DNA of 64,000 nucleotides, taken from assembly GCA_902519325.1 (NCBI GenBank), contig CABYJU010000004.1, forward strand, positions 1 to 64,000, read 5' to 3'. This DNA is from an uncultured Pelagibacteraceae bacterium (lineage in GTDB: Bacteria; Pseudomonadota; Alphaproteobacteria; Pelagibacterales; Pelagibacteraceae). The translations under genes and the position numbers were made by a program. Below are positions 60,259-63,727 of this stretch, one piece after another; the stretch's first letter is position 1; each line of letters opens with the position of its first letter. The notes beneath the pieces are model-generated. The model was not told where the DNA came from and searched no databases. It saw only the letters and a program-made list of their open reading frames with translations.

Positions 60259-60954
60259 TTAATTCTCTTTAGTCTTTTTATATAATTGCCACAAATCCGG
60301 TCTTCGGTCGCGTGTTATAGCCTCAGATTGAGATAAACGCCAGTCTTTAATTTTGGCGTGATCGCCTGATAATAGCACATCTGGAACACTTTTTTCCTCC
60401 CATATTTGAGGTTTTGTAAATTGAGGATACTCTAAAAGTCCGTTTTCAAAACTTTCTTCTTTAGCTGAATTTGTATTACCAAGAATACCAGGAATAAATC
60501 TTAAAATTGCATCAAGAATTACAAACGAAGCTCCTTCACCTCCAGATAAAACAAAGTCTCCTATACTTACTTCCTCAATATTTCTTGTTTTTAACAATCT
60601 TTCATCAACTCCTTCAAAGTGTCCACAAATTATATTTATTGTTTTTTCTTGAGATAGTTGTTTTGCTAATTGATGATTGAACAACTTACCCTTTGGACTT
60701 AGATAAATAATCTTTTCGCCATCTTTAACATTCTTATCTATTGATTTTGCTAATACATCTGCTTTCATTAACATACCTTCCCCTCCTCCATAAGGAGTGT
60801 CATCAACAGTTTTATGCTTATCAAATGCATACTCTCTTATATCCACAGTATCTATTTTCCATTTATTCTCTGATAGTGCTTTACCAAAAATACCTTGGCC
60901 TAAATAGCCTGGAAAAAAATCTGGATAGAGTGTGAATATACGAGCTTCTAACAT
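60259..60954 (-). CDS. trmD: tRNA (guanine-N1-)-methyltransferase
   Basis: TrmD methylates G37 in tRNAs to prevent frameshifting. The 231-residue knotted SPOUT protein has [12 protein letters not shown] at the N-terminus, [30 protein letters not shown], and the knot segment [19 protein letters not shown]. Its ATG shares a base with the rpsP stop, leaving no room for rimM, which normally lies between. Confidence 0.97.
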
Positions 60955-61370
60955 TATTTTTTTTCTTCTTCCTTAGGTGCTTCTGCTGGCTTAGCTTCTT
61001 CCTTAGGTGCTTCTGCTGGTTTAGATGCATCTCCTTCTGGTTTCGCTTCTCCACCTTCGTCAGCTTTTTTTCTATCTTTTTTAGGAATTGCTTTTTGAGG
61101 ATTGTTTCCTTTTTCAGGCATTGGCATTATATCGTTTTCTCCCAATAACCTTGCAACTCTTGTTGTTGGCTGAGCTCCTTGACCTAACCAATATTTAATT
61201 CGCTCGGAATCTAAGCCAATTCTTTCCTTTTTATCCTTCGGTAATAACGGATTATAAAAACCTAATTTTTCTATAAACCTTCCGTCTCTTGGAAATCTAC
61301 TATCAGCCACAACAATTTTATATACTGGCCTTTTTTTAGTACCTCCCATTGATAGTCTCATTTTTAACAT
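60954..61370 (-). CDS. rpsP: 30S ribosomal protein S16 with repetitive tail
   Basis: S16 is needed for 30S assembly. The core (about 1-85) has [35 protein letters not shown] and [17 protein letters not shown]. Residues 86-138 form an acidic/lysine-rich tail that ends with a tandem repeat of the unit [10 protein letters not shown]. Alphaproteobacterial S16 proteins often have such tails. It follows ffh by 14 bases, giving ffh-rpsP-trmD-rplS. Confidence 0.95.
60965..61019. repeat. Tandem direct repeat in the rpsP tail
   Basis: A 25-base unit occurs exactly twice, at 60965-60989 and 60995-61019, a period of 30 bases (10 codons). It encodes the repeated PAEAPKEE part of the S16 tail. The in-frame period suggests replication-slippage expansion of a disordered tail. 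Confidence 0.9.
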
Positions 61371-61384
61371 TACTTATATCTCCT

Positions 61385-62743
61385 TTATTTTAATTGATTA
61401 AATAGTTCAGGCGGGATCCCTTTATCCGCCATTCCTTTCATGTTTCCTTTAGACATTTTTTTCATCATTTCTGACATCATCTTAAATTGTTTTAACAACT
61501 TATTGATAGTGGCAATGTCTGTACCTGAGCCATTAGCAATTCTTTTTTTTCTTGATCCATTTATAATTTTAGGATTTTCTCTTTCTTGCTTTGTCATTGA
61601 TAAAATAACAGCTTCATTTTGAGTTATAATTTTTTCATCTATTCCTGATTGGTCCATTTGTGATTTAATTTTTGAAACTCCAGGGAGAAATGACATTATG
61701 CCTTCTATTCCACCCATCTTTTTCATTTGACGTAATTGAGAAAGATAATCTTCCATCGAGAATTGACCTTTTTTAAGTTTCTCTTCTGTTTTCTTTAAAT
61801 TTTCTTGATCTAAATCTTCTGAAGCTTTTTCAACTAAGGAAACGATATCTCCCATTCCCAAAATTCTATTTGCAATTCGATCAGGATGGAAAACTTCAAA
61901 ATTCTCAATTTTCTCTCCAACACCAAGAAACTTTATGGGGACCTCAGCAACATATTTCATACTCAATGCAGCTCCACCTCTTCCATCTCCATCTGCTCTT
62001 GTAAGTATAATTCCGCTCAAATTCACTGTATTTTTAAATTCCTTTGCTACATTAGCAGCAACTTGACCTGTTAGAGAATCTGCTACCAGTATAGTTTCTG
62101 CAGGATTAATAATAGTTTCAATTTGTTTGATTTCATTCATCATTTGAAAATCTATTTGTGTTCTTCCAGCAGTATCAAATAAAACTACTTCACAACCATT
62201 TAAATTTGCAGCACTTAATGCTCTTCTACAAATATCTGCAGGAAGCTGGCCTTCTATAATTGGCAAAGTTTCAATATTATTTTGTTCACCCAAAAGTCTC
62301 AATTGTTCTTGCGCGGCAGGTCTGTAAACGTCTAAACTAGCCATCATTACTTTTTTCTTATTATTTTTTTCTAAAAATTTTGCTAATTTTGAGGTTGTTG
62401 TGGTTTTTCCTGAACCTTGCAATCCAACTAACATGATTGGAACTGGAGGGACAGCATTAAGGGAGATTTCAGAATTCTTATCACCTAAAAAAGATACTAT
62501 TTCGTCATAAACGATTTTTACAACCATATCCCCGGGAGAAGTTGATCTTATAATTTCCTGACCTAGCGCTTTGGGCTTAACTCTACTAATAAACTCCTTA
62601 ACTACGTCTAATGAAACATCGGCTTCTAACAAAGCCAACCTTATACCTTTTAAACCCTCGTCAACTTGCTTTTCATCAAGAGAAGGAGCTTTTTTTAATG
62701 AAGAAAAAATTTCTTCAAATTTATTAGTTAAATTTTCAAACAT
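61385..62743 (-). CDS. ffh: Signal recognition particle protein Ffh
   Basis: Ffh binds signal sequences and SRP RNA and delivers ribosomes to FtsY at the membrane. With the ATG at 62741-62743 the protein is 452 residues: an N domain (1-95), G domain with the P-loop GLQGSGKTTTTSK (about 107-119), DTAGRTQID and TRADGDGRGGAALS, and a methionine-rich M domain (about 300-452; MKKMGGIEGIMSFLPG and SGTDIATINKLLKQFKMM). A TTG farther upstream (62824) would extend the frame by 27 residues through a structured RNA element, so I rejected it. No ribosome-binding site precedes the ATG, only AAATT after the structured leader. Confidence 0.96.
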   Translation of the reverse strand: MFENLTNKFEEIFSSLKKAPSLDEKQVDEGLKGIRLALLEADVSLDVVKEFISRVKPKALGQEIIRSTSPGDMVVKIVYDEIVSFLGDKNSEISLNAVPPVPIMLVGLQGSGKTTTTSKLAKFLEKNNKKKVMMASLDVYRPAAQEQLRLLGEQNNIETLPIIEGQLPADICRRALSAANLNGCEVVLFDTAGRTQIDFQMMNEIKQIETIINPAETILVADSLTGQVAANVAKEFKNTVNLSGIILTRADGDGRGGAALSMKYVAEVPIKFLGVGEKIENFEVFHPDRIANRILGMGDIVSLVEKASEDLDQENLKKTEEKLKKGQFSMEDYLSQLRQMKKMGGIEGIMSFLPGVSKIKSQMDQSGIDEKIITQNEAVILSMTKQERENPKIINGSRKKRIANGSGTDIATINKLLKQFKMMSEMMKKMSKGNMKGMADKGIPPELFNQLK

Positions 62744-62748
62744 AATTT

Positions 62749-62848
62749 CGCACAGCAAGTATCGCACCAGTGGGCGAACCCTCGCTGACTGGTGTCGATC
62801 TCTTTGTTTCCAAAGACACCGCAAATTGCTGTATTTTGCGGAAGTGCG
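62749..62848 (-). ncRNA. Structured RNA element filling the ffh leader (unidentified)
   Basis: These 100 bases are about 53% G+C in a chromosome that looks near 30%. Read on the minus strand they form several perfect stems (plus coordinates): 62835-62841 with 62819-62825 (CCGCAAA/TTTGCGG); 62811-62816 with 62801-62806 closed by a GAAA tetraloop; 62788-62794 with 62765-62771 (CACCAGT/ACTGGTG), extended by three pairs past a bulge, and with an inner GCGA/TCGC stem. The loop ACAGCAA (62826-62832) is complementary to TTGCTGT (62752-62758), a potential pseudoknot, and GTGCG-type ends close the whole. The GAAA loop favours the minus strand. The SRP RNA apical motif is absent. It may be a cis-regulator of ffh or a processed small RNA. 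Confidence 0.6.
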
Positions 62849-62853
62849 CGTAA

Positions 62854-62879
62854 ATTATATTAGAGGTTCAAAAAGTCAA
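62854..62879 (-). promoter_or_regulatory. Candidate promoter for the ffh leader RNA
   Basis: On the minus strand a perfect TATAAT (62854-62859) lies downstream of TTGACT (62874-62879). The spacing is 14 bases, shorter than the usual 16-18, so the true -35 may be elsewhere. Transcription would begin near 62847, precisely at the first stem of the structured element. Confidence 0.45.
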
Positions 62880-62902
62880 TAAATAAGTTAAGTATTATTT
62901 AT

Positions 62903-63727
62903 ATGGAATTTGAAGCATTTAAAATGGATGGATTAGGTAACGACTTTGTTATTATTGATCAGAGAATAAATAGTTTAAACTTATCAAATGACCAAATCTT
63001 AAAAATTTGTGACAGAGATTTCATAGGGTGCGATCAGTTGATCTACATAAACAAAAGTCAAAAAGCTGATGCTGATGTTGCTTTTTTTAACTCGGATGGA
63101 AGCCGCTCAGATGCATGTGGAAATGGAACTAGATGTGTTGCTTATTTACTAAGTATTGAAAAAAATAAAAAAGAAATTGAAATTTTGGTATCCTCAAAAA
63201 TATTAAAATCTAAAGTTCTTAATAATAAAGATGTTGAAACGATAATTGGAACTCCAAATTTAGAGTGGAACAAAATTCCTTTAAGTAAAAATCTTGATAC
63301 TAAAAATCTATCACTTGGTATGATTGATATTGACGGAAATAAAATGAATGGTGGTATTGCAGTGAATGTTGGTAACCCTCATGTAGTATATTTTTGCGAG
63401 GATATAGAAAAAATAAATTTAAAAAAATATGGACCATTAATAGAAAATCATGAAGTTTTCCCTGAGAAATGCAATGTCACAATAGCTCAGAAAATTAGTG
63501 ATCAACATTACAAAATTAAAGTTTGGGAGAGGGGTGCAGGTTTAACAAAAGCTTGCGGGACTGCAGCATGTGCAACAGCAGTCGCAGCTAATTTAAATCA
63601 ACTACAAAACAGTAATTCAAAAATAGAATTTTCAACAGGAATTTTAAATATTCAAATTGATAATGAATTAAATATAAAAATGAGAGGTCCTGTATCTGAA
63701 ATTGAAAAGATTAATATCAAAATATAA
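62903..63727 (+). CDS. dapF: Diaminopimelate epimerase
   Basis: DapF converts LL- to meso-diaminopimelate for lysine and peptidoglycan. The 274-residue protein has the two catalytic cysteines, C72 in DACGNGTRC and C218 in KACGTAACATA, plus FKMDGLGNDFVIID at the N-terminus and VNVGNPHVV near 155. It is divergent from ffh across 159 bases that hold the ffh leader element. The ftsY ATG overlaps its stop by one base (TAATG). Confidence 0.97.
   Translation: MEFEAFKMDGLGNDFVIIDQRINSLNLSNDQILKICDRDFIGCDQLIYINKSQKADADVAFFNSDGSRSDACGNGTRCVAYLLSIEKNKKEIEILVSSKILKSKVLNNKDVETIIGTPNLEWNKIPLSKNLDTKNLSLGMIDIDGNKMNGGIAVNVGNPHVVYFCEDIEKINLKKYGPLIENHEVFPEKCNVTIAQKISDQHYKIKVWERGAGLTKACGTAACATAVAANLNQLQNSNSKIEFSTGILNIQIDNELNIKMRGPVSEIEKINIKI

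Follow-up and report, generated by a model that had tools for sequence, protein, structure and literature searches.

The window analysed here is the whole 64,000-nucleotide stretch of contig CABYJU010000004.1 from an uncultured Pelagibacteraceae bacterium (GCA_902519325.1). Its minus strand carries an operon in the order ffh-rpsP-trmD-rplS(-leuC-leuD), in which ffh (61385–62743; Pfam SRP54, SRP_SPB, and SRP54_N) is followed by rpsP, encoding ribosomal protein S16 (60954–61370, assigned by Pfam), trmD (60259–60954; Pfam TrmD), and rplS, encoding L19 (59676–60257; Pfam L19); leuC and leuD are names that we give to Pfam Aconitase and Aconitase_C matches. rpsP and trmD overlap by one base (60954), and thus rimM, which usually lies between these two genes, is missing from this position. 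dapF, confirmed by Pfam, is divergent from ffh, and their gap holds a GC-rich, strongly folding leader on the minus strand. The original prediction described this gap as a G+C island of about 53% lying between a TATAAT box and ffh, with strong folding of the minus strand and no visible ribosome-binding site, and all of these features were recovered. G+C was 53% at 62750–62849 compared to 24–39% in 14 other stretches of 62400–63199, and the minus strand of 62740–62865 folded at −47.8 kcal/mol (z −6.02), a value that none of 200 shuffled sequences equalled. The predicted operon promoter consists of a −35-like TTGACT (62874–62879, minus strand) and a −10-like TATAAT (62854–62859, minus strand) separated by 14 nt; an overlapping TAATTT at 62857–62852 provides an alternative −10 sequence with a 16-nt spacer. 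The TTGACT/TATAAT pair was absent from the output of a consensus promoter scan of 62700–62950. Transcription from this promoter is predicted to start near 62847. By eye, no ribosome-binding site precedes the ffh ATG at 62743–62741, which lies 21 nt from the last hairpin of the leader (hairpin C, below). The ffh reading frame stays open into the leader as far as a TTG at 62824 (61385–62824, minus strand, 479 aa); because leader lengths vary between relatives by at least one base, a coding role for this in-frame extension looks doubtful.

The structured leader belongs to a known RNA family. Rfam family RF01793 ('ffh') matched 62757–62809 on the minus strand with 58.2 bits (gathering cut-off 35 bits; E 1.7e-8) across model positions 1–52 of 52, and this was the sole Rfam 15 match at gathering level in the entire 64-kb window. 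The element precedes ffh, as in the family description, and contains the two conserved cytosines of the RF01793 bulged hairpin as C62787 facing C62772. The window element is therefore a member of an already published family, and a significant match of this kind is one of the outcomes that the original prediction had counted against itself. The loci of Meyer et al. (2009; PMC2704228) include the ffh/dapF gap of Pelagibacter ubique, and the motif is presented there as one bulged hairpin that shows covariation and has two conserved cytosines, detected in metatranscriptomes and found in Rhodobacterales, Sphingomonadales, and Rhizobiales but not in the Rhodospirillales or Caulobacterales sequenced by then; its function was left open in that report. 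Our literature search gave no published function for RF01793 among the matches listed, which is not proof of absence from print. An element of ~100 nt adjoining ffh might also be a divergent SRP RNA, and we regard this as almost certainly wrong, since the element gave no match to the SRP RNA model RF00169 at E values up to 10 and the SRP RNA match of this genome (42 bits) lies elsewhere, at G000:C1:50213–50307; the original prediction likewise held that the element is not SRP RNA. Two side observations from the literature concern the family: a table in PMC5596092 places a Mesorhizobium huakuii copy of RF01793 in 'IGR_Pb-19', apparently on a plasmid and an odd place for it, and a passage of PMC3264578 describes a Pelagibacter signal recognition particle protein as absent from Rickettsiales, a statement that perhaps arose from misunderstanding the ffh RNA motif.

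The core of the RF01793 match is hairpin C (62765–62794, minus strand), in which a 7-pair outer helix is followed by a C·C mismatch (62787/62772), an A·C mismatch (62786/62773), and a GCGA/UCGC inner helix. Across 99 distinct class loci, whose boundaries were set by RF01793 match coordinates with no added pairing rule, 95.0% of hairpin C cells were paired, although the RF01793 search itself favours pairing. In these loci, 11 of 12 pairs had changed on both sides, and the covariation score was 0.397, compared to 0.132 for shuffled alignments and no more than 0.078 when partners were slid. The C·C mismatch was present in 98/99 loci and replaced by U·C in one, the GCGA/UCGC inner helix was near-constant, and the variable pair beside C·C was standard in 44/99 and non-standard in 55/99. 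A second alignment (103 of 105 rows kept, with less than 90% similarity, from 225 leaders) gave 94.5% paired cells and a covariation score of 0.483 compared to 0.161 when shuffled, figures that are partly circular because the selection rule demands pairing and C·C. Within 83 distinct Pelagibacterales leaders, 913/913 cells of 11 pairs were paired and 45 cells had changed on both sides, at two pairs; two of five covariation measures, the number of both-side-changed pairs (459/500) and of further pair types (500/500), fell within the range of shuffled alignments.

Hairpin B, CGGUGUCUUUG-GAAA-CAAAGAGAUCG (62796–62821, minus strand), stands 1 nt before hairpin C in the window, and the Rfam model leaves its 3′ strand within the unpaired 5′ stretch. 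The stems and GAAA loop of the original prediction exist, with the GAAA hairpin redrawn as an 11-position helix containing one G·G mismatch. An unbroken stem of at least five pairs positioned exactly 1 nt from hairpin C was found in 26/72 Pelagibacterales leaders (2.5 in shuffles), in 8/11 leaders of the PS1 clade (0.3 in shuffles), and in 60/143 other alphaproteobacterial leaders (7.2 in shuffles; 30 basal sequences), where the shuffles preserve base composition and not dinucleotides. Five of the 199 RF01793 loci (L119, L123, L127, L129, and L182) failed the rule used to define a leader and were left out of the hairpin B tests. With one mismatch allowed, the leader scored above its own shuffles in 186/226 cases, and 57 of 80 named S16 loci entered this test. 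In the genus of the window, hairpin B with the 1-nt gap was found solely when one mismatch was allowed; with none allowed, a different, wobble-rich register 3 nt away was chosen in 43/72 Pelagibacterales leaders. Thus, hairpin B appears to be well supported across the class, though not in every leader.

The position of these hairpins relative to the promoter is also conserved. TTGAC occurred 46–110 nt upstream of hairpin C in 193/224 leaders, at distances with quartiles of 78, 85, and 87 nt, compared to 2/224 for a control stretch 250 nt downstream; L295 and L314, probably false leaders given their location within ffh, are counted among both these 224 leaders and the 226 of the hairpin B tests. 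This near-fixed spacing suggests that the hairpins open the transcript. A nearly fixed place behind the promoter and strong folding would also be expected if the hairpins formed a 5′ structural cap that merely stabilises the operon mRNA or sets its processing; we consider this unlikely, as the C·C mismatch in 98/99 loci and the near-constant GCGA/UCGC helix exceed the needs of any stable hairpin.

Upstream of hairpin B, hairpin A (CCGCAAA/TTTGCGG; 62819–62841, minus strand) is described here for the Pelagibacterales, where a stem of at least five pairs was present in 75/83 leaders, a count that has no shuffle control; the MAFFT alignment shifts this helix by one column between two SAR11 families. 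Hairpins A and B compete, because the last CGG of A is the start of B. Two longer-range pairings were evaluated in Pelagibacterales by comparing the duplex energy of each leader's own strands with that of permuted pairs. For the pseudoknot between the loop of hairpin A and the 3′ tail, an element of the original prediction, 179/2000 tail permutations were as good over 62 distinct pairs (L055 was dropped from this test), with 298/2000 in the set from the window's genus and 1475/2000 in the rest; the test gives no support for its conservation in Pelagibacterales, and the pseudoknot may form in the window itself, where the strands are complementary. For a 5′–3′ closing stem, 785/2000 permutations were as good over 68 pairs, with 91/2000 in the set from the window's genus, a weak hint, and 1867/2000 in the rest; taken over all Pelagibacterales, this stem likewise receives no support as a conserved feature. 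For the alternative GTGTC/GACAC pairing, which the original prediction took to suggest two states, inspection by eye showed an incomplete match between the strands in the second SAR11 family.

The 3′ tail of the element, CGAUACUUGCUG (62753–62764, minus strand), carries G[UC]U[UG] and has no U-run terminator. G[UC]U[UG] recurs across the class 9–12 nt 3′ of hairpin C. The tail bears on whether the element is an attenuated leader or stable small RNA, the latter an option already raised by the original prediction. Transcription would then mostly stop after hairpin C and release an RNA of ~100 nt, either functioning in trans or arising merely from attenuation that involves no protein ligand. In the 143 other alphaproteobacterial leaders, the 12 nt after hairpin C contained a mean of 6.2 T, and 71 of the 143 had a run of at least four T within 16 nt. 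An RNA of this kind may already have been recorded, as Table 1 (row 17) of PMC2573895 reports small-RNA enrichment on a microarray for sm5 in the dapF/ffh gap of Sinorhizobium meliloti, under acidic, basic, oxidative, and saline stress; sm5 is given there as ~120 nt, with a predicted sigma-70 promoter and terminator and with a northern not done. Like the window element, sm5 lies in the gap between divergent dapF and ffh, on the ffh strand, is ~120 nt long, and has a predicted promoter; it differs in its predicted terminator, and we liken the two by position, not by sequence. The metatranscriptome detection of the motif (PMC2704228) would fit as well. However, the window contained no terminator-like site and thus nothing that combines a GC-rich hairpin with a U-run as an intrinsic attenuator would; the longest T run in 72 Pelagibacterales leaders was 3; and the element was linked in cis to the same operon at all loci examined. 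We therefore regard this explanation as possible and on the improbable side, although somewhat less so than a structural cap.

To what genes is the element tied? At E values up to 0.001, RF01793 was found in 114/150 relatives and 106/385 class genomes (81/385 over the cut-off). A broader model, R1, built from hairpin C and the tail, matched 240/385 class genomes at the same threshold compared to 106 with RF01793, with the caveats that its E-values are rough (short calibration), weak matches were unscreened, many of the same genomes had been used for training, and no control genomes appeared in the output. This count covers the class as a whole, without division by order. An Ffh-like start was found downstream, by the rule used, in 189/199 RF01793 loci, with 8 to 224 nt separating the match end from the start codon; the other ten comprise four PS1 loci, one locus (L034) with a short ORF in between, and cases of contig ends, an unusual start, or strand misassignment. 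The short ORF in that genome (G426; L034/L205) lies between the element and ffh and has no Pfam match, and a serC leader (RF00517) occurs further down. In 40 hand-chosen longer loci, rpsP followed the element in the same orientation in 39 and ffh in 35, the fortieth locus ending too early; the four loci with rpsP and without ffh all belonged to one family. Both ffh and rpsP were downstream in 20/20 chosen loci from genomes matched by R1 and not by RF01793. The element thus stands constantly upstream of a ribosomal-protein gene or operon in these sets, as a ribosomal-protein leader would. S16 (PF00886) was present in 364/385 class genomes.

The loci with rpsP and without ffh led to the order that holds the PS1/OCS116 clade, represented by 18 genomes (G192, G317, G413, G490, and G528–G541; loci L201–L204 and L256–L274). 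No SRP54-domain GTPase (Ffh or FtsY) scored over the cut-off in any of the 18, compared to 14/14 positive control genomes; one partial SRP54 match in G530 (20.5 bits) was below the cut-off. The Ffh of the window used as a query found nothing in the four order genomes first tested. SRP RNA was detected in 0/18, a weaker test because controls were positive in 11/14 and one SAR11 genome's own SRP RNA fell under the cut-off. YidC-family proteins were found in 15/18. These genomes are 55–97% complete, which makes chance absence of SRP from all 18 improbable, and we therefore describe the pathway as apparently lost in this order. The element was present in 14/18 of these genomes, directly before rpsP in 14/14, and was missed in G528, G532, G535, and G537 (96, 83, 70, and 61% complete, respectively). 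In all 14, S16 starts 60–67 nt after the beginning of the conserved CGTCAACGA of hairpin C. Named S16 relatives from the OCS116 cluster and PS1 clade gave the same picture in 5/5 loci, where rpsP is preceded by the element and ffh was not matched, although one of the five loci begins just 193 nt upstream of rpsP.

The PS1 elements retain the structure. In 12 distinct leaders from 19 loci, 132/132 counted cells of hairpin C were paired, and 9 cells had changed on both sides, at 2 pairs, a number reached by 0/500 shuffles. Three of five covariation measures beat all 500 shuffles; both-side-changed pairs (227/500) and further pair types (500/500) fell within the shuffled range. Hairpin B could be drawn by eye as CGGUC/GAUCG, CAGUCC/GGAUUG, CAAUCC/GGAUUG, or CGGUUCA/UGAAUCG. 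As hairpin C is compensated where Ffh is undetected, selection on the leader RNA appears to continue without Ffh in this order. This outcome bears directly on the possibility of autorepression, with Ffh bound to the leader of the operon that encodes it, a role that the original prediction had raised with the words "perhaps bound by Ffh" and that the 189/199 loci with an Ffh-like start downstream would favour. A leader of this kind would be expected to have Ffh wherever it occurs; instead, the PS1 order retains it, with compensatory changes, in genomes without detectable Ffh, FtsY, or SRP RNA, and it matches no SRP RNA model. Feedback by Ffh is therefore improbable, and more so than a 5′ cap.

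Taken together, these results make it more likely that the element controls a ribosomal-protein operon rather than ffh itself. What the original prediction called a leader controlling Ffh synthesis thus holds in part: a conserved, structured leader heads the ffh transcript, and the rpsP operon is its likelier target. Because the leader belongs to an operon with two ribosomal-protein genes and is kept by rpsP without ffh, ribosomal-protein feedback is the simplest reading. We propose, at a confidence a little short of even, that the element is a cis-regulatory leader of the ffh-rpsP-trmD-rplS operon with S16 probably as its ligand, S16 being chosen because rpsP adjoins the element in PS1. The wider proposal is more tentative still: RF01793 may be an ancient, class-wide S16 (rpsP) autoregulatory leader that came to be linked to ffh because ffh is usually first in the operon, with SRP loss in PS1/OCS116 exposing the true target. 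By this model, the operon transcript would open with neighbouring hairpins B and C behind a promoter at a near-fixed distance, and an operon product, most likely S16 in excess over 16S rRNA, would bind B/C and lower operon expression. In SAR11, where the ATG is close by and no U-run is present, S16 on the leader might hinder translation initiation. Where other alphaproteobacteria have U-rich sequence following hairpin C, the output could instead be premature termination, as suggested by the U-rich tail, distances of up to 224 nt, and the S. meliloti small-RNA signal; the full spread of 8 to 224 nt to the start codon fits poorly with one simple translational block.

Several points weigh against S16 specifically. 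trmD and rplS are also present in most of these operons, and L19 and TrmD are possible alternative ligands; the leader could also persist in PS1 for some other reason. By the rule used, no hairpin of this form was found in E. coli 16S or 23S rRNA. The element resembles established ribosomal-protein leaders, such as the L19 leader and the rpsB motif, in that it is a folded 5′ leader on a transcript encoding ribosomal proteins, and differs from them in that its ligand is putative and its hairpin form had no counterpart in E. coli rRNA. We know of no S16 leader.

The window element agrees with RF01793 as published in its place in the ffh/dapF gap of Pelagibacter and in its bulged hairpin with two conserved cytosines. 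Compared to that description of a single hairpin tied to ffh, our analysis adds hairpin B, a broader model that matches 240/385 class genomes, a tie to the rpsP operon, and a PS1 order from which SRP is apparently lost; the family itself was known. Among the matches listed, our literature search returned no report of SRP loss in PS1, which does not prove that none is in print. According to Meyer et al. (PMC2704228), SRP is essential and its conservation extends to all domains, and Streptococcus mutans is described as surviving experimental SRP loss (PMC8546722). A bacterial order without Ffh, FtsY, and SRP RNA would be remarkable in its own right. For the RNA family, a clade without detected SRP genes serves as a natural knock-out in which the two candidate targets of the leader can be told apart, and it makes binding of S16 directly testable.
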